Positions 339-9,817 of a stretch of DNA of 64,000 bases are shown here, in pieces (within the stretch, counting starts at the first letter, position 1; the number at the start of each line of letters is the position of its first letter). The position numbers were made by a program, and so were the translations under genes. The DNA lies in assembly GCF_023168405.1 (NCBI RefSeq), contig NZ_AP025285.1, positions 1,858,001-1,922,000 of the forward strand, in the 5' to 3' direction. A model generated the notes under the pieces. The model searched no databases and was not told where the DNA came from. It saw only the letters and a program-made list of their open reading frames with translations. The stretch comes from Leptogranulimonas caecicola (GTDB lineage Bacteria > Actinomycetota > Coriobacteriia > Coriobacteriales > Atopobiaceae).

Positions 339-658
339 GGCAACGTGGGCCTTTATCGGTATTCTACGCTGCGTTTTTATGGACAATGGTTGCATTTAAA
401 TATGTCTATGCGCTCGTTCAAGCTCTGTGGGCTGTTCATGGACAGCCCGAATCGCGTTTATCGTGACTAACACGATGCTTGTTGGGGAATGCTGTTGGGT
501 TTCTGACGCAACGGCAGGCTGCCCGCGATGGCGCCCTTCTTTAGCGCGACGTCAGGCGATAGGTTCGCTGGCGTGCCTTTCATTGGCACTCTTGGTGGTT
601 TGCCAGGGGTCTTGCGCTCTGCCCTTCAAGCATGAAGACAGACAGAACGGGAGTTTGG
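339..658. other. Intergenic region upstream of the secreted hydrolase
   Basis: No convincing gene. An AT-richer patch around 385-410 (ATTTAAATATGTC) is the likeliest place for a promoter of the downstream gene, but no clean -35/-10 pair can be defended. Confidence 0.4.
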
Positions 659-1715
659 ATGAACGCACTGACCCTTCGTATGCGCGCCGCCATTGTGGTG
701 CTGTGCGCCGCGCTTGCCCTGATGGCAATGCCGGTGCCCGCCTTGGCAGACGGTGGCGAGCAGGAAGGCGACTTGTCGGAGCTCCAGATCAAGATCGAAG
801 AGTCTGGGAAAGCTTACGACGAGGCTTGTGCCAAGGTAGAGAGCCTTAATGAAGAGGCTGCTCAAAATCAAGCCCGCATTGACGAGGTTTCTACACAGCT
901 TCCGGCCCAGCGCCAAAAGGCCTCGGCCGCCATCGCCGCCAGTTACAAAATGAGCCAAAACCAGCCAGGCCTTATGGGCCTCATCCTCTCATCGGAGAAC
1001 TTCGATGACTTTTTGGCCACCATCACCTATCTCAACGCCGTTCAGGGCCATAACCTTGACCAGGTGGACCGCCTGAACGACCTCCAGGACGAGCTGGAAT
1101 CCAACCAGGCAGAGCTGGCCCAGCGCCAGGCGGAGGCCGAGGCCCAGAAACAGGCAGCCCAAACCGCTCTGGACGAGGCCAAGGCCGCCCGCGAAGAGGC
1201 CCAGCGCCAGGCGGAGGAGCAGGCTGCCCGCGAAGCCGCCGAGGCTGCCGCCGCCCTCCAAGCCGAAGCTGACGCCCAAGCCGCTGCACAGGCCGCGCCC
1301 GTCTCCCAAGCTGCCGTACCCTCTGCTCCTTCCTCGGTGGATTGGAGCAGCGACAAGAGCTCCTTTGTGGCCCAGTGGGCCCCCCGCATCGACGCCTATC
1401 TGGCTGGCTCCCCCCCTGGCGGGCCAAGGCACCACCTTTGCCTCCGCCGCCTGGGACTACGGCGTGGATCCCCGCTGGTCCCCCGCCATCTCCAACACCG
1501 AGAGTTCCAAGGGCGCCGTGTGCTTCCGCCCCTACAATGCCTGGGGCTGGGGCAACGCCAGCTGGTCCAGCTGGGAGGAGGCCATTCCCGCCCACGTGGC
1601 CGGCTTGGCCCGCGGCTACGGCTACACCATCTCCTGGGAGGCCGCCAAGAAGTATTGCCCGCCCAACGCCGCCCACTGGTACAGCGCCACCCTGGCCGAG
1701 ATGAACTCCATCTAG
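659..1715 (+). pseudogene. Secreted PcsB/CwlO-like coiled-coil protein with lysozyme-like C-terminal domain, frameshifted
   Basis: The start at 659 is preferred because GGGAG lies 7 nt upstream; an in-frame ATG at 632 has no good ribosome binding site. Residues 1-30 are a signal peptide ending near 'PALA'. A long charged coiled coil follows (residues ~35-200), with the PcsB/RipA-like segment 'ASYKMSQNQPGLMGLILSS', and then an Ala/Gln-rich linker. The frame breaks at a run of seven C (1410-1416). Removing one C joins 'AYLAGSP' to 'LAGQGTTFASAAWDYGVD', which runs to the stop at 1715. The C-terminal ~100 residues look like a transglycosylase/goose-lysozyme fold, with a candidate catalytic Glu in 'AISNTESSKG'. 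The intact product would be an exported peptidoglycan hydrolase of about 350 residues. The break may be a real mutation, a phase-variable tract or a sequencing error. Confidence 0.75.
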
Positions 1716-2485: not shown

Positions 2486-3469
2486 GTGTCACAGGAGCCA
2501 CAGAGCGAAGAGGTCCAAGAGGAAGACGGGGTCGCCGCCAAGGTGGTTCCCGGACAGCAACTTCAAGAATCCGGCCCCGGCGCCGCTCCTGCCAAAAAGC
2601 TCACCATCTTAGGCGTTGCATGCACACTCATAGGCGGCATACTCTGGGGTTTCTCAGGCACCTGCTCAAAAATCCTTATGGACACCTGGGGCATCGGCTC
2701 CCTGTGGCTGGTGGCAGTCCGCCAGCTGTTCGCCGGATCGGCGCTGCTCGTCATGGGCGTCTGGGCCCACAGAGACGTCCTCGCACGCCTCGCCTCTTCC
2801 CGCCGAGACATGCTGCAACTGGTGCTTGCCGCCTTTGCAGGCATGATGCTCAATTCGGCGGCTTACCTCAACTGCGTGCAGATTACCGACTCCGGCACCG
2901 CTACCGTGCTCCAAAGCCTCTCCATCGCCATGGTGCTCGTCTACCTGTGCCTGCGCACTCGCACCGCCCCCAGCAAACGCGAGGTTGTCGGCCTGCTGTT
3001 GGCCCTCCTAGGCGTGTACCTCATCTGCACCCACGGAGATCTGGGCGCTCTGCGCATCTCGCCCTCCGGCCTGTTTTGGGGCTTCTTCTGCGCCTTGGGC
3101 GCAGCTCTGATGAGCGTTGTTTCTCGGCGCCTCTTGGTGACCTATGGCTCCACCGCCATCACCGGGCTCATGATGCTCGTAGTGGGAACAGTGCTGCTCT
3201 TTGTGGTGCAGCCCTTCTCCCACATGCCCGCGCTGGATGCCGCCGGTTGGGGGCTTTTGGCCTTTACCGTGGTCTTTGGCACCGTGGCGGCCTATGGCCT
3301 TTACTTTCAAGGCGTCAAGATCCTGGGCGCCTACAAAGCGGGATTGCTGGGCACCATCGAGCCGGTGACGGCGACGGTGGCCTCGGTGTTGCTCACGGGC
3401 ACCTCCTTTGTGGCCCCTGAGCTCGCAGGCTTTGCCGCCATCATCCTCATGGTCTTCCTCACCAGCTAA
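2486..3469 (+). CDS. EamA/DMT-family transporter
   Basis: An integral membrane protein of about 327 residues. The GTG at 2486 is chosen because AGGAAGGG lies 7 nt upstream; the in-frame ATG at 2429 has no such site. The first ~40 residues are a polar tail. About ten hydrophobic segments follow, arranged as two EamA repeats; the first repeat opens with 'GGILWGFSGTCSKILM' and the second with 'GLFWGFFCALGAALMSVVSRRLL'. The second repeat ends with the family-typical 'TIEPVTATVASVLLTG'. DMT transporters export or import small metabolites, and the substrate cannot be predicted here. A near-perfect copy of the dispersed motif (TGCCGAGAGACCC) starts 1 nt after the stop codon. Confidence 0.9.
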   Translation: MSQEPQSEEVQEEDGVAAKVVPGQQLQESGPGAAPAKKLTILGVACTLIGGILWGFSGTCSKILMDTWGIGSLWLVAVRQLFAGSALLVMGVWAHRDVLARLASSRRDMLQLVLAAFAGMMLNSAAYLNCVQITDSGTATVLQSLSIAMVLVYLCLRTRTAPSKREVVGLLLALLGVYLICTHGDLGALRISPSGLFWGFFCALGAALMSVVSRRLLVTYGSTAITGLMMLVVGTVLLFVVQPFSHMPALDAAGWGLLAFTVVFGTVAAYGLYFQGVKILGAYKAGLLGTIEPVTATVASVLLTGTSFVAPELAGFAAIILMVFLTS

Positions 3470-3608
3470 CTGCCGAGAGACCCTTGAGCATCCCTGCCTG
3501 AAATCTCACCATCCTCGTATCTTCCCCACGCAAAATTGGGGAAGCCTATCATCTATGGAAGACAAACCCAACCGGCAGCCCTTGTCCAAAGGCTCCCAAG
3601 GAGGCTCT

Positions 3609-6542
3609 ATGACTCAGTCCGCACCCGTGTGCCCTAACCTCAAGCCCGGAGATGTCATCGGCGACTTCACGCTGGTCTCGCGCGAGCCCGTGTCAGAGAT
3701 CGACGGCGAGGCCCTGGTCTTTAGCCATTCCCCCTCGGGAGCTGGTCTTTTGTGGCTCGCCAACAGCGACAACAACCGCGCCTTCTCCATCGCCTTCAAG
3801 ACGCCGCCCACCAACGACACCGGCGTCTTCCATATCTTGGAGCACTCGGTGCTGGACGGCTCCGACAAGTACCCGGTCAAAGAGCCCTTCGTGAACCTGC
3901 TCAAGAGCTCTATGCAAACCTTCTTGAACGCCATGACCTTCCCAGACAAGACCATGTATCCGGTGGCCTCCACCAACGTGGCAGACCTTGAGAACCTCAT
4001 GGACGTCTACCTGGACGCCGTGTTTCATCCAGCGCTCTATCGCAAGCCTCATATCTTTGAGCAGGAGGGTTGGCACTACGAGCTGGAGAGCCCCGACGCG
4101 CCGCTCACCTACAACGGCGTGGTGTTCAACGAGATGAAGGGCGCCCTCTCAGACCCCGACGACGTGCTCTTCATGCACCTCAAGCGCCAGCTGTTCCCCG
4201 ACACCTGCTACGCCTTCGAGTCTGGCGGCAACCCCGTCGCAATCCCCGAGCTCACCTACGAGGAGTTCTGCGACACCCACGCCCGCCACTACCAGCTGGC
4301 CAACTCCCATACCGTGCTCTACGGCGACCTGGACATCGAGCGGGAGCTGGCGTTTTTGGGGGAGCGTTTCTCGGCAGTGAGCCATGAGAGCGTGGGAGCC
4401 CCCAACGCGCTGGAGTTCCAGGAGGCAGTGAGCCCGGATCCTGTGGAAGTGCCGCTGTCTACCTCGGCAGAAAATCGCTGCGTAGGCGTGGGCTACGTGC
4501 TGGGGACCTCCAAAGACCGCGAGCGCGTCCTGGCGGCAGACGTGCTTATCGACGCCCTCATGGGCTCCAACGAGGCGCCGCTCAAGCGCGCCATCCTGGA
4601 TGCTGGGCTGGGCGACGACGTCTTCGCCTACCTCATCGACGGCGTGGCGCAACCCATGGTGATCTTCGAGCTCAAGGGCGCAAAGCCAAAAGTAGCCGGC
4701 CAGTTCAAGGAGCTTTTGGAGTCCACCTGCAAAGGCATCGCGGAGGCCGGCGTGCCCGCCGACCGCCTGGAGGCCTCCTTGGCCCAAGCCGAGTTCAACC
4801 TGCGCGAGGCCGACTTTGGCTATCCCGACGGCGTGGGCCTGGCCATCTGTTCCATGAACAGCTGGCTCTACGACGAGGGCGACCCGCTGTCCTTCGTGCG
4901 CTACGAGGCCGCCTGCGAGGACCTGGAAAACTCGCTGGGCCTGGGGGTCTTTGACAAGCTGCTGCGCGAGCTGGTGGTAGACAACCCCCATCAGGCCCTG
5001 GTGACTGTAGAGCCTCAAGAAGAGACCGCCGCAGCTCAAGAGGCGCAGCGGCTCGCCCAGCTCAAGGAGACCCTGAGCCATGAGGAGCTGGAGAAGATCT
5101 CCTGCGACATGGCCGAGCTCAAGGCCGAGCAGGCCCGTCCTGACAACCCCGAAGACGTCGCCCGCCTGCCCCACCTCTCCATCGCAGACATCGCCGCGGC
5201 CCCTGCTCTCCCCCTTGCCGAGAAGGTCGAAGCCCCCTACCCCTGCTATTCCTACGACCTCGAGACCCACCACATCGACTATAGCTACCTCTACTTTGAT
5301 CTGGAGCGGGTAGGCTGGGGCGAGCTGCCCTACGTCACCGTGCTCTGCTCGTTGCTGGGCAAGCTGGACACCCGCCAGCACACCGCTGCCGAGCTGGACA
5401 CCCTCCTAGAAAGCCAGTTGGGCTCCTTCTCCACCTTCGTGGAGGTCTACGGCGACGCCCGCACGCCCCTTAAAGTAGCCAAGCCCAAGCTGGTGGTAGG
5501 GGCCGCCTCCCTCTCAGAAAAGGTATCCTATCTGGCTACCCTGCCCTGCGAGGTGTGCTGCGAGACCATCTTTGGCGATACCGAGAAGATCCGCGCCATC
5601 CTGGTACAACAGCGCATTGCCATGGAACAGTCTTATGTCAATGCGGGCCACGCCGCCGCCCTGGCCCGTTGCGGCAGCTACTTCTCTTGCGCCTCCAAGG
5701 CCACCGAGGCCCTGCGCGGCATCGACTACTACAAGTTCTTGGTGTCGCTCCTGGACAACTTCGACCGGCGCGCCAGCTCGCTCTGCGAGATCCTGCGCAA
5801 CCTCCAGGGCCGCATCTTCAAGGGAGACGGCCTGGAGTGCTCCTTTGCCGGCGCCCCCGGCGACCTGGAGCGCTACTGGGAGGCCGCAGGCGATCTGGGC
5901 CTGGCAAACGACGGCCACCCCACCGCGCCTCAGCTCCAGGTGCCCGAGCCCACCGTCGCCCGCGAGGGCTTCACCGTGCCTGCCAACGTGTGCTTCGTGG
6001 CGCAGATGGCTGCAGGCAGCCTTATGCCTAACAACCAACATACGAGCTACAACGGAGCTTGGATCGTCGCGTCCAAGGCCCTCAATTATGGGTACCTCTG
6101 GAATGAGGTGCGCGTGCTTGGCGGCGCCTACGGCTCCGGCTTCAACTGCGCTCCCTCATCGCTTTTGGGGTTCTACTCCTATCGCGACCCTGCGGTAGAC
6201 CCCACTCTGGCCGCCTATGCCAAGGCAGGCCAATGGCTCGCTTCTTGGGATCCCACCCAAGAAGACCTCGAGGGTTTCATCGTGTCCTCGGTGGCAGGCC
6301 TCGACGCACCCCAAAAGCCCCGTACCGCCATGCGCCAGTGCGACAGCCTGCGCTTCTCCCACCGCCCCGCCAACTGGCGCCATCAGGTGCGAGACGAAGT
6401 GCTCGCCGCTTCCATCGACACCGTACGCAGCCTTGCCAGCTCCCTGTCTGGCGTCCCTGAGTGCGGCGGCGTCTGCGTTATTGGCGGTCGCGACCAACTC
6501 GACGCATCCCAGGCCGGAATCGAGGTGCAGCCCCTCGTCTAG
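3609..6542 (+). CDS. M16C (presequence protease/PreP-like) zinc metallopeptidase
   Basis: A protein of about 977 residues, the usual size for the PreP/Cym1 group. The ATG at 3609 is preferred over upstream in-frame starts because AAGGAGG lies just before it. The inverted zinc motif HxxEH is 'HILEH' at residues 75-79, and the third ligand is the Glu of 'NEMKG' near residue 175. Two M16 halves are linked by a charged helical region (~residues 460-540). The C-terminal half keeps the substrate-clamping 'GGAYGSGF' segment typical of M16C. The likely role is degradation of peptides inside the cell, since there is no signal peptide. It is followed after 20 nt by the 2-hydroxyacyl-CoA dehydratase gene and so is probably co-transcribed with it. 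Confidence 0.92.
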   Translation: MTQSAPVCPNLKPGDVIGDFTLVSREPVSEIDGEALVFSHSPSGAGLLWLANSDNNRAFSIAFKTPPTNDTGVFHILEHSVLDGSDKYPVKEPFVNLLKSSMQTFLNAMTFPDKTMYPVASTNVADLENLMDVYLDAVFHPALYRKPHIFEQEGWHYELESPDAPLTYNGVVFNEMKGALSDPDDVLFMHLKRQLFPDTCYAFESGGNPVAIPELTYEEFCDTHARHYQLANSHTVLYGDLDIERELAFLGERFSAVSHESVGAPNALEFQEAVSPDPVEVPLSTSAENRCVGVGYVLGTSKDRERVLAADVLIDALMGSNEAPLKRAILDAGLGDDVFAYLIDGVAQPMVIFELKGAKPKVAGQFKELLESTCKGIAEAGVPADRLEASLAQAEFNLREADFGYPDGVGLAICSMNSWLYDEGDPLSFVRYEAACEDLENSLGLGVFDKLLRELVVDNPHQALVTVEPQEETAAAQEAQRLAQLKETLSHEELEKISCDMAELKAEQARPDNPEDVARLPHLSIADIAAAPALPLAEKVEAPYPCYSYDLETHHIDYSYLYFDLERVGWGELPYVTVLCSLLGKLDTRQHTAAELDTLLESQLGSFSTFVEVYGDARTPLKVAKPKLVVGAASLSEKVSYLATLPCEVCCETIFGDTEKIRAILVQQRIAMEQSYVNAGHAAALARCGSYFSCASKATEALRGIDYYKFLVSLLDNFDRRASSLCEILRNLQGRIFKGDGLECSFAGAPGDLERYWEAAGDLGLANDGHPTAPQLQVPEPTVAREGFTVPANVCFVAQMAAGSLMPNNQHTSYNGAWIVASKALNYGYLWNEVRVLGGAYGSGFNCAPSSLLGFYSYRDPAVDPTLAAYAKAGQWLASWDPTQEDLEGFIVSSVAGLDAPQKPRTAMRQCDSLRFSHRPANWRHQVRDEVLAASIDTVRSLASSLSGVPECGGVCVIGGRDQLDASQAGIEVQPLV

Positions 6543-6562: not shown

Positions 6563-7954
6563 ATGACCCAGATGACCAAATCGGACGACCAAAAGCTTGG
6601 CATCAAGATCTTGGATGCCTGGGCTTCCGCCATCGACGGCGTCATGGACGACCGCCCCGACATCACCGGCTTTTGGCTGCTCAAGGCCTTCCAAGTCAAA
6701 CGTGCCCAATGCCGCTTTCTGCCTGACCGCTGGGCCCACCCCAGCGGTCAGCAGGCGGCCCTTTTGGCGCTGGAGTCTGTGACGGGCGCCCTCGAGCACC
6801 CCCAAGACATCGTGCTCACCTCCATCTTCATGCCCAATGAGATCTTTCAGTCGCTGGGGCTCTATCCCCTTATCGCCGAGGCCGCAGCCAACTTTGTGAC
6901 CGGAGCCCACGCCGAGCCTTCCTTTATTGAGAGTGCCGAGAAACACGGCGTCCCTGAGACCTACTGCTCCTTTCACAAGGTGCTTCTGGGAGGAGCATTC
7001 GCAGAGGTGTTCCCCTCTATCCCCTTTATCGCCAACTGCTCGGTGGCCTGCGACGCCAACAACCTCTCCTTCAAGCTGCTGGCTGCCCACTACGGTGCCC
7101 CTCAACGCTATATCGATGTGCCGGATTCTTATACAGAGGAGAACTGCCGCTACGTGGCAGAGCAGCTGGAAAGCCTGGCTCACGCCTTGGAAGAGGCTTA
7201 TGGGCGCACGTTGGACCTGGAAGATCTTAAAGAGCGCGTAGCCCGCTCCCAGCGCACGTTAGACAAACTGGCAGCCACCCTCCCCTTGCGCCGCAACCGC
7301 TTTGTGAAGAACAACATGGGCCTAGAGATGCAGCATGCCCTGGTGTTCCATACGCTGTTGGGCGACCCCAAAGCCGAGCAGCTGGCAACCCAGATGCTCG
7401 AGGACTACGCGGACGCCCCAGAGTTCCATGGAGTCAACCTGGTATGGAGCGCCACGGCCCCGTTCTTCTCGGTACCTTTGCAAAAGCTTGTGGATGTCAA
7501 TCCAGAGCAGCAGATCATCGCATCAGACATGTGCTTTGACCAGGTCACCTTTGACGGCTGGCATCACGACGGCGCGCATGAGCCCTTCTTGGCCATGGCC
7601 GAGCGCCTCATTCGCAACTCCTACAACGGCGGAGGCCAGCATCGGGCAGACAGAATGGCAGAGCTCTGCGAGATGACCAAGGCCGACGGCGCCGTGGTCT
7701 TTTGCCACTGGGGCTGCAAGGAGACCATGGGCTGCGCCCAGCTGGTCAAGTCCACGCTAGAGCGGGCAGACTTCCCCTGTATCACGCTAGACGGCGACGG
7801 CTGCAACCGCGCCAACTTCCCCGGCGGCCAAGCCGCCACACGGCTGGGCGCCTTTTTGGAGATGCTCCACGCTCGCAAAGACCAGCGGTCAGCGGCGCAC
7901 CCGCAACCTGCAGCCTCCCCGCGCGACGAGAGCGACGAGCAGACCGTGGCATAA
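6563..7954 (+). CDS. 2-hydroxyacyl-CoA dehydratase subunit (HgdB/FldB-like)
   Basis: A protein of about 463 residues, started at 6563 by AGGAGGGG. It belongs to the HgdA/HgdB dehydratase family, whose subunits bind a [4Fe-4S] cluster and dehydrate (R)-2-hydroxyacyl-CoA by a ketyl-radical mechanism. Diagnostic features are an internal 'IANCSVACDANNLSFKLLA' segment, 'FCHWGCKETMGCAQLVK' near residue 380, and the C-terminal 'DGDGCNRANFPGGQAATRLGAFLEML', which matches the family end D-G-D-x-x-R...GQ-x-x-T-R-x-x-A-F. It lies between the M16C peptidase and the activase fusion. Its substrate is unknown; reductive fermentation of amino-acid-derived 2-hydroxyacids is the obvious candidate. The enzyme is expected to be oxygen-sensitive. 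Confidence 0.85.
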   Translation: MTQMTKSDDQKLGIKILDAWASAIDGVMDDRPDITGFWLLKAFQVKRAQCRFLPDRWAHPSGQQAALLALESVTGALEHPQDIVLTSIFMPNEIFQSLGLYPLIAEAAANFVTGAHAEPSFIESAEKHGVPETYCSFHKVLLGGAFAEVFPSIPFIANCSVACDANNLSFKLLAAHYGAPQRYIDVPDSYTEENCRYVAEQLESLAHALEEAYGRTLDLEDLKERVARSQRTLDKLAATLPLRRNRFVKNNMGLEMQHALVFHTLLGDPKAEQLATQMLEDYADAPEFHGVNLVWSATAPFFSVPLQKLVDVNPEQQIIASDMCFDQVTFDGWHHDGAHEPFLAMAERLIRNSYNGGGQHRADRMAELCEMTKADGAVVFCHWGCKETMGCAQLVKSTLERADFPCITLDGDGCNRANFPGGQAATRLGAFLEMLHARKDQRSAAHPQPAASPRDESDEQTVA

Positions 7955-8098
7955 CAGATCCCGTGGCCCCAGGCCTCTTGGGCACCCTGGGTTTACAATG
8001 CCTAGAGCTCGCTCTATTCAGAGACGCGCCATCCCCATGCGCCTGAACCTTTTGGCAGCCGCTTCACTCTAGAAACCCCCAATCCATAGGAGCGTCGG

Positions 8099-9817
8099 GT
8101 GACTCCCACCGTTTACTATCCCTGCAAATACGCGCCCATCGAGCTTTTGGCCGGCTACGGCGCTGCCTGCAAACCGGTTACCTACGAGGCCACTTCCTTT
8201 GAAGATGCCGATAGGCTCGCCCATCCCAACCTCTGCGGCTTTGGCAAGTCCCTCATCGCCTTTGCCCTGAAGCCCGAGGTCAAAGCCCTGGTGCTCACCA
8301 GCTGCTGCGACGTGATGCGCCGCGTCTACGACGTGTTGGATGCCGAGCAGTGCTTGGACTTCCTGTTCATGGTAGACCTCCCTCATCTCACCGGCCCTGC
8401 GGAGCGCGCGCGTTTGGCCTCCGAGCTTGAGCGTTTGACAGAGGCCTGGGAGCGCTATTCTGGCGAAGCCTTTGATGTAGGGGCTGCCCTCTCCTCCTTC
8501 GAGCCCCCGGTGGCCAGACAAGACGCCCGCGTCACCCTGTTGGGCGCCCATGGCCCTGAGTCGCTGCTTAAGGCTGCCGAGTCTGCCTTCGACCTGCCGG
8601 TGGAAAACCTCACCTGCACCGGTGGCCGCAGGGTGGCCTCTCCTCCAGCCTCGCTGGGTCGCGCCATCCGCGAAGAGGCGTGCCGCGAGAATTGCGACGC
8701 GAGCACACCGGCCCCAGACCCCAAGGAGGCGTTTATCGGCTGGTATGCAGGGGCATTGCTCGACCAAACCCCCTGCCTGCGCATGGCCGACATCTCTGGC
8801 CGCCAAAACCTCATTGGCACCCCAGGACAACGCGGCGTGATCTACCACACCATGAAATTCTGCGACTACTACGGCTTTGAGTACCTTATGGCCTCCCAGG
8901 ACGCCGTGGTTCCCATGATCAAGGTAGAAACCGACGGCACTCGCCAAAGCGCGGGCCAGCTCTCCACTCGACTAAAGGCTTTCGACGAAACGTTGGTAGG
9001 TATGACTGACACGCTCAAGTTTGATAAAGGCACCGGCCCCATTTACGTGTTGGGGGTGGATTCGGGCTCTACCTCGACCGATGCCGTCATCGTAGACAAA
9101 GACGGCACTCCTGTGGCCACGGTAATCCTGCCCACCGGCGCCAAAGCCACCGAGAGCGCTCAACGTGCTATCGACTCCGTGCTTGAGAAAGCCGGTCTCA
9201 CCCGCGACCAGATCACGCTGGCGGTGGCCACGGGCTACGGCCGCGACTCCATCCCCACCATGGACACCTCCATCACCGAGATCACCTGCCATGCCCGCGG
9301 AGCCCATGCCCTGTGTCCCGAGGCCATGACCATCGTGGACATCGGCGGCCAGGACTCCAAAGTCATCAAGCTGGACGAGGACGGCAATGTGGTGAACTTT
9401 GTGATGAACGACAAATGCGCCGCCGGCACCGGACGCTTCTTGGAGATGATGGCCCGCACCATGGAGCTGCCTTTGGACGAGTTTTGCACCCAAGGCCTAT
9501 CCTGGAAGCACGACGTGAAGATCTCTTCGATGTGCACGGTCTTTGCCGAGAGCGAGGTTGTAAGCCTGGTAGCCGATGACACTCCTGTGCCCGACATCAT
9601 CCATGGCCTGGATCGCTCGGTAGCCTCCAAGATCACCAGCCTTGCCAAGCGCGTGAAGGCCGAGCCTCCCTACCTCATGACCGGCGGCGTCGCCAACAAC
9701 GAGGGTGTGGTCACCGCCATTGGCGAAGCCCTGGGTGCGCCGGTAGCCACCAGCGAAGACTCCCAACTCTGTGGTGCCCTGGGCGCCGCTTTGCTAGGCT
9801 TGGAGGCCTTGGTCTAA
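8099..9817 (+). CDS. 2-hydroxyacyl-CoA dehydratase subunit fused to its ATP-dependent activase (HgdC/BadF-type)
   Basis: A 572-residue two-part protein with a GTG start preceded by AGGAG. Residues ~1-300 resemble a shortened dehydratase subunit ('YYPCKYAPIELLAGYGAACKPV', then 'GVIYHTMKFCDYYGFEY' and the closing 'ETDGTRQSAGQLSTRLKAF'). Residues ~313-572 are a BadF/BadG/HgdC ATPase: the phosphate loop 'GVDSGSTSTDAVI', 'VDIGGQDSKVIKL', and the two Cys that hold the bridging [4Fe-4S] cluster, in 'KCAAGTGRF' (Cys ~440) and 'MCTVFAESEV' (Cys ~479). They are 39 residues apart, as in HgdC. The activase injects one electron into the dehydratase at the cost of ATP. With the upstream gene this could supply a two-subunit dehydratase plus its activator. 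The fusion of subunit and activator is the unusual point. Confidence 0.85.
   Translation: MTPTVYYPCKYAPIELLAGYGAACKPVTYEATSFEDADRLAHPNLCGFGKSLIAFALKPEVKALVLTSCCDVMRRVYDVLDAEQCLDFLFMVDLPHLTGPAERARLASELERLTEAWERYSGEAFDVGAALSSFEPPVARQDARVTLLGAHGPESLLKAAESAFDLPVENLTCTGGRRVASPPASLGRAIREEACRENCDASTPAPDPKEAFIGWYAGALLDQTPCLRMADISGRQNLIGTPGQRGVIYHTMKFCDYYGFEYLMASQDAVVPMIKVETDGTRQSAGQLSTRLKAFDETLVGMTDTLKFDKGTGPIYVLGVDSGSTSTDAVIVDKDGTPVATVILPTGAKATESAQRAIDSVLEKAGLTRDQITLAVATGYGRDSIPTMDTSITEITCHARGAHALCPEAMTIVDIGGQDSKVIKLDEDGNVVNFVMNDKCAAGTGRFLEMMARTMELPLDEFCTQGLSWKHDVKISSMCTVFAESEVVSLVADDTPVPDIIHGLDRSVASKITSLAKRVKAEPPYLMTGGVANNEGVVTAIGEALGAPVATSEDSQLCGALGAALLGLEALV

Follow-up and report, generated by a model that had tools for sequence, protein, structure and literature searches.

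The window, a stretch of 64,000 nucleotides from Leptogranulimonas caecicola, contains two adjacent genes of the BCR/HAD superfamily (Table 1). The downstream gene is an open reading frame with a GTG start, the motif ATAGGAG just 5′ of it and a stop codon at 9815-9817. Pfam recognizes two domains in its product: HGD-D (PF06050, 96.5 bits over two stretches, the best at residues 9-127 and the second extending to residue 299) and BcrAD_BadFG (residues 318-567, 219 bits). The upstream gene lies directly 5′, with 144 nt between the two, and encodes a free HGD-D subunit; both proteins score well above the HGD-D cut-off of 28.4 bits. The TIGR00241 score of the fusion protein is twofold the cut-off of 125.4, which places it among the acyl-CoA dehydratase activases. 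An AlphaFold2 model of the fusion, built from the family alignment, has a mean pLDDT of 91.0 and a pTM of 0.83. The domain and family matches and the open frame confirm the original prediction of one polypeptide that joins a complete activase to an HGD-D-type domain and is encoded after a single free subunit. A scan for promoters and terminators found signals no commoner than in shuffled sequences.

Table 1. Features of the two-gene locus, with positions in the window.
Feature	Position	Strand	Length or basis
Free HGD-D subunit, catalytic alpha (HadB/BzdO) type (predicted)	6563..7954	+	463 aa; HGD-D 177 bits
Glu106 codon, aligned to HadB Glu55 / BzdO Glu65	6878..6880	+	invariant in 67 rows
Cys135 codon, aligned to BzdO Cys95	6965..6967	+	invariant in 67 rows
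Cys163 codon, aligned to BzdO Cys128/129	7049..7051	+	invariant in 67 rows; one-residue offset from published ligand Cys128
Cys385 codon, aligned to BzdO Cys380	7715..7717	+	invariant in 67 rows
Fusion gene: double-cubane-type HGD-D domain, linker and HgdC-type activase	8099..9817	+	572 aa
N-terminal double-cubane-type domain, residues 1-300	8099..8998	+	PDB profile matches and fold
Cys9 codon, putative second-cubane ligand	8123..8125	+	Cys in 68/68 fusions, 14/14 DCCPs, 0/8 HadC-type (Pro)
Cys46 codon, ligand common to all HGD-D controls	8234..8236	+	68/68, 14/14, 8/8
Cys69-Cys70 codons	8303..8308	+	Cys70 is the shared ligand position: 68/68, 14/14, 8/8
Cys173 codon, putative second-cubane ligand	8615..8617	+	68/68, 14/14, 0/8 HadC-type
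Cys226 codon, putative second-cubane ligand	8774..8776	+	68/68, 14/14, 0/8 HadC-type
Cys255 codon, shared ligand position	8861..8863	+	68/68, 14/14, 8/8
Inter-domain linker, about residues 301-315	8999..9043	+	AlphaFold2 model and family rows
ASKHA-type activase domain, about residues 316-568	9044..9814	+	TIGR00241 249.8 bits and fold
Cys440 codon, activase cluster ligand	9416..9418	+	invariant in 68 rows
Cys479 codon, activase cluster ligand, 39 residues after Cys440	9533..9535	+	invariant in 68 rows

The activase half has the fold of HgdC, HadI and MbdQ (Z 34.6-37.4), with Z 37.4 at 42% identity to MbdQ (9gai_D) and 36.6 at 45% identity to HgdC (1hux). By sequence it is closer to HadI and HgdC (4.5e-65 and 1.5e-60) than to DCCP-R (1.3e-43). 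The spacing of its two cluster cysteines is as originally predicted. Against the BzdQ equivalog model it scores 190 bits, below the cut-off of 380.2. The linker that joins it to the N-terminal domain is 13-63 residues long across 68 sequences, with a median of 19.

Those 68 fusion sequences (alignment A4) come from 60 of the 63 usable loci of a genome scan, the window and seven earlier loci, and count at least three genomes twice (L009/L038, L020/L080 and L021/L093). Seven cysteines of the N-domain are invariant among them (C9, C46, C69, C70, C173, C226 and C255), and six of the seven are the positions kept in all 14 double-cubane (NF040772) proteins (DCCPs). Only the positions of C46, C70 and C255 are Cys in the eight HadC-type controls; at the positions of C9, C173 and C226 these have Pro, Ala/Ser and Ser/Thr, respectively. 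We took the HadC-type set because a first set of 21 HGD-D controls consisted mostly of double-cubane proteins: 20 of the 21 have all six Cys, and two members score 467 and 473 bits with NF040772. The extra Cys69 (8303-8305) is specific to the fusion family, present in every fusion sequence and in none of the DCCPs (0/14, Thr) or HadC-type proteins (0/8). A canonical HadC-type N-domain is ruled out by these controls, which have three Cys in 8/8 against six in the fusions. A non-catalytic relic is also ruled out, as few residues of the domain are as conserved as the ligand Cys; an absence of cluster ligands, which the original prediction had named as a sign against a catalytic role, is not what the alignment contains.

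A PDB profile search with the N-domain returns DCCP first (7yyl_C, 5e-20; 6eno, 8e-20), then HadC (7e-12) and BzdN (3e-8). In the structure comparison, Z scores of 25.2 for the DCCP 7yzm_A, 24.7 for BzdN and 24.2 for HadC do not separate double-cubane proteins from single-cubane beta subunits. The double-cubane equivalog NF040772 is weak on both proteins of the pair (51.2 bits for the fusion and 55.6 for the free subunit, with a cut-off of 350). The domain is also short, about 300 aa against 370-420 aa for a full HGD-D subunit. A median of 4 residues precedes C9 in the fusions, compared with 89.5 in DCCPs and 39.5 in HadC-type proteins, and C70 and C173 are 102 residues apart rather than the 162-164 of the controls, about 60 fewer. 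The fused domain has no N-terminal helix and little of the middle helical domain. In BzdN and BzdO, as far as the available part of the source describes them, the N-terminal helix and middle domain build a four-helix bundle, and in BzdO they also help to form the CoA channel (PMC11971306). The same part of that source assigns an [8Fe-9S] cluster on six Cys to BzdN, a [4Fe-4S] cluster on three to BzdO and a retained [4Fe-5S] remnant to the HAD beta subunit (PMC11971306). From the conserved residues we infer that the fused N-domain is an electron relay of the double-cubane type, with a putative cluster. The original description of a dehydratase-like domain of about 300 residues holds for its size and HGD-D type, but not for a catalytic dehydratase subunit: the six Cys are of the relay type, and it is the free subunit that appears catalytic.

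By its sequence pattern and modeled fold, the free product is a catalytic-type subunit. Its AlphaFold2 model, again from the family alignment, has a mean pLDDT of 93.2 and a pTM of 0.92, and it is nearer to the alpha subunits HadB (Z 38.4), BzdO (36.8) and MbdO (33.8) than to the beta subunit HadC (31.5) or to DCCP (28.8). Profile matches are to BzdO (9e-17) and HadB (1.6e-16). Only three Cys (C135, C163 and C385) are invariant in the 67 free-subunit sequences (alignment A5, 66 of 68 plus the window). The position equivalent to Cys9 is Ser in 60 of the 67 and in seven of eight HadB-type controls. The protein fits the alpha pattern of 2-hydroxyacyl-CoA dehydratases, with three Cys and equivalents of Ser37 (Ser in those 60 rows) and Glu55. 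A clear counterpart of BzdO His131 is absent, so a benzoyl-CoA-like ring reduction is unsupported; the window protein has C-D-A-N after C163, where the alignment is uncertain by one residue. Two other invariant features of the 67 sequences are His138 (6974), which lies three residues after Cys135 as BzdO His131 does after Cys128, in the other ligand loop, and His382-Trp383 (7706-7711), beside a ligand Cys.

The BzdO equivalog model gives the free subunit 29.2 bits (cut-off 448.6), the HadB model 39.9 of the 750 bits needed, and the HadC model gives the fusion 22.6 of 700. As the double-cubane, bzd and Had models all fall far below cut-off, we file the pair under none of them and regard it as a distinct branch, which is nevertheless like class I benzoyl-CoA reductases (BCRs) in its cluster logic. 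The dehydratase label of the original prediction is not established. A BCR-like reduction or another reaction fits equally well, and CoA-pathway genes are absent beside the pair.

The domain search proposed with the original prediction finds the fusion to be common in genomes. It is present whole and in frame in 20 of 60 related genomes. A scan of named-species genomes with the N-domain gives 66 loci, in Atopobiaceae (Olsenella and relatives), Eggerthellaceae, Lachnospiraceae, Oscillospiraceae, Absicoccus porci, Anaerotignum sp., Clostridium carboxidivorans P7, C. drakei and others. The frame continues from N-domain to activase in 65 of the 66, one of which (L037) ends inside the activase at the end of its contig. 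Such in-frame fusions in independent assemblies rule out an assembly artefact, a frame error or chance. Among the Coriobacteriia the N-domain occurs in 30 of 246 genomes, each time within a frame of 539 aa or longer. In the Absicoccus porci locus (L087, about 6831-9175) the fusion is broken: the N-domain is in one frame and the activase in another, and the latter is cut short where an ORF that we take to be recombinase-like sits on the opposite strand.

A free subunit lies directly upstream of the fusion at 65 of the 66 loci, within 60 nt of the N-domain at 54 of these, and five loci have two free subunits in tandem. The sole locus without a linked free subunit, L080, belongs to a genome (G033) that has one elsewhere, with one stop within the matched stretch. 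In Coriobacteriia the fusion and the free subunit are found in the same 30 genomes, and the other 216 have neither. The partnership of the two is obligate. In ten of the 30 genomes one fusion is accompanied by two free subunits, which stand in tandem in three of the ten; in the other seven the second lies far away, and a stop interrupts the matched stretch in two of these seven. The genome of the window has such a second gene outside the window (L001, G000:C1:1777828-1778889), which encodes a catalytic-type free subunit with three Cys and the Glu and has no activase of its own. A presumably nitroreductase-like ORF adjoins it on the same strand. In 12 of 20 fusion genomes examined there is no stand-alone activase above cut-off (G006 has one partial match below it), and some genomes of this kind, such as G003, carry a stand-alone double-cubane protein. 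Each fusion has one or two free subunits, a ratio that points to a shared electron injector more than to strict 1:1 pairing. Together with the 12 genomes that have no stand-alone activase, it suggests that the fusion is able to serve more than one partner.

In E. coli, yjiM stops 9 nt before yjiL, in frame, and a relay/activase pair of Sulfurovum matches it in order and frame. If a split pair like yjiM/yjiL loses one stop, the domain order of the fusion results. The fusion activases form one group in the activase tree (support 91), where deeper branches are weak, several are long, and the nearest split relative of the group is not settled. In the HGD-D tree, which has long branches, the fusion N-domains (support 98), free subunits, DCCPs, HadC-type and HadB-type proteins each form one group. 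The single groups of activases and N-domains are consistent with one origin of the fusion.

We think it likely that the pair is a two-protein, ATP-dependent radical enzyme of the BCR/HAD superfamily with the cluster logic of class I BCRs, in which activator and relay are fused. The mechanism is probably that of class I BCRs, from which we draw it by analogy with the available part of the published description (PMC11971306); the cluster types, electron path, dimer, docking of the two proteins and CoA-ester chemistry are what we infer from this. Two fusion chains would dimerize by their activase domains and share one [4Fe-4S] cluster, to which each contributes Cys440 and Cys479. The cluster would take an electron from a ferredoxin-type donor, and ATP hydrolysis would drive this electron, at very low potential, to a double-cubane [8Fe-9S] cluster on the six Cys of the N-domain. 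The free subunit would then receive the electron at a [4Fe-4S] cluster with three Cys, an open fourth site and Glu106, and there reduce or dehydrate its substrate, most probably a CoA ester. Fusion to the relay may make the activator locally more concentrated and favor repeated injection. It is plausible that the fusion also fixes stoichiometry, as the original prediction proposed.

Several other readings draw on parts of the same evidence. The pair could be a canonical 2-hydroxyacyl-CoA dehydratase, with a three-Cys beta subunit ([4Fe-4S] or [4Fe-5S]) joined to its activator and catalyzing radical dehydration of a 2-hydroxyacyl-CoA. The free subunit is indeed nearest to HadB in fold and without a clear His131 counterpart, the activase is closest to HadI and HgdC by sequence, and the N-domain matches HadC in fold almost as well as DCCP. 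The dehydratase beta subunit, however, would have three Cys only, and the three further Cys, invariant in the fusions and absent from the HadC-type controls, do not fit, nor do the low HadC and HadB scores; genes for a CoA-transferase or hydroxyacid dehydrogenase are not seen beside the pair. We consider this reading unlikely. The class I BCR set, for comparison, is matched on ligand pattern only, by one six-Cys subunit, one three-Cys subunit and an activase.

It is more doubtful still that the fusion is a DCCP/DCCP-R (YjiM/YjiL) pair joined by loss of a stop and acting alone as a homodimeric small-molecule reductase, with the free subunit a mere neighbor. The split pairs of E. coli and Sulfurovum have the right gene order and reading frame, and the N-domain profile is best to DCCP, but fusion and free subunit are present in the same Coriobacteriia genomes and adjacent at nearly every scan locus, the N-domain lacks the helices of the four-helix bundle and CoA channel of BzdN/O, and the activase is nearer to HadI/HgdC than to DCCP-R. 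A protein that injects electrons into other targets or repairs them (for instance several alpha-type partners, or a substrate other than a CoA ester, as in TudS sulfur chemistry), and for which the free subunit is just one of the clients, would account for the second free subunits, mostly distant, and for the genomes that have no stand-alone activase, some of which have a stand-alone double-cubane protein. We judge it highly improbable: the free subunits are of full alpha type and keep the CoA-channel domains, the linked partner is near-universal, and two of the seven distant copies contain a stop. A bolder form of the reading that we prefer, a two-protein radical enzyme, is possible rather than probable. 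It takes the pair as a separate BCR/HAD class of gut anaerobes, in which an activator and a trimmed double-cubane relay on one chain feed at least one exchangeable alpha subunit. If so, each turnover could be supplied with two electrons whose potential goes beyond that of ferredoxin, and a benzoyl-CoA-reductase-like machine would exist outside aromatic degradation.

The nearest described systems share different parts of this arrangement. Class I BCRs of the BZD/MBD type (BzdNOPQ, MbdONPQ) have the predicted cluster series of the pair, activase [4Fe-4S], six-Cys relay and three-Cys subunit with Glu, in the available part of PMC11971306, and their folds match our models. The pair differs from them in having relay and activator on one chain, one activase type and thus probably a homodimer rather than P+Q, a relay without the N-terminal and middle helices, no clear His131 counterpart, scores below the equivalog cut-offs, and gut anaerobes as hosts, with no aromatic genes beside it. 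DCCP/DCCP-R and E. coli YjiM/YjiL share the six-Cys pattern and have a relay gene that immediately precedes the activase gene, in frame, but are separate proteins with a full-length domain; DCCP is described in the same available part as a homodimer without a separate catalytic subunit, unlike the pair here (PMC11971306). HadBC with HadI and HgdAB with HgdC resemble it in activase (42-45% identity) and in the fold of HadB, whereas HadC-type beta subunits have three Cys, and the dehydratases described in the available part of PMC11574389 have an activator of their own that is not joined to another subunit. We found no characterized enzyme with the same fusion in the literature searched, which missed the main double-cubane papers, where it may be mentioned.

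The protein would combine in one gut-anaerobe polypeptide an ATP-driven electron pump and an iron-sulfur relay that are separate in the radical enzymes studied. The constant presence of a separate catalytic partner points to an uncharacterized enzyme type. Open questions of the superfamily concern the docking of the activator, which may be a single event or recur with each turnover, and a possible role of the double cubane in electron storage. With activator and relay on one covalent chain, these can be tested in a single construct. The two-gene unit is conserved in many host-associated Coriobacteriia and Bacillota, where family models annotate it only generically, and probably marks an uncharacterized reaction of the gut, an ATP-dependent reduction or dehydration.

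We analyzed 118 of the 127 proteins encoded near the pair. None of these neighbors is conserved across taxa at the 66 scan loci, and CoA-pathway genes were not found among them; 10 of the 118 belong to the integrase family. The large peptidase-like ORF just 5′ of the pair (3408-6542), presumably of M16 type, has a homolog upstream at 28 of the 66 loci, including L080. Five Bacillota loci (L076, L081, L082, L086 and L089) have, within about 6 kb downstream, a gene that we take to be cysteine-desulfurase-like, and four of the five also have a presumed Rrf2/IscR-like gene.

The genome encodes another fusion containing activase-like domains, outside the window (G000:C1:616208-617920). This 1564-aa frame, which we assume carries the DUF2229 label, is near-universal in the related genomes searched; it has two activase-like domains and, unlike the fusion gene, no PF06050 match and no linked free HGD-D subunit. 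Near the start of the window (632-1715), a gene for a secreted coiled-coil protein is split over two frames, with the N-terminal coiled-coil part in ORF 632-2026 and the C-terminal part in ORF 1365-1715. It is either a pseudogene or a sequencing error, and in the sister genome G001 (L186) both parts are in one open frame.
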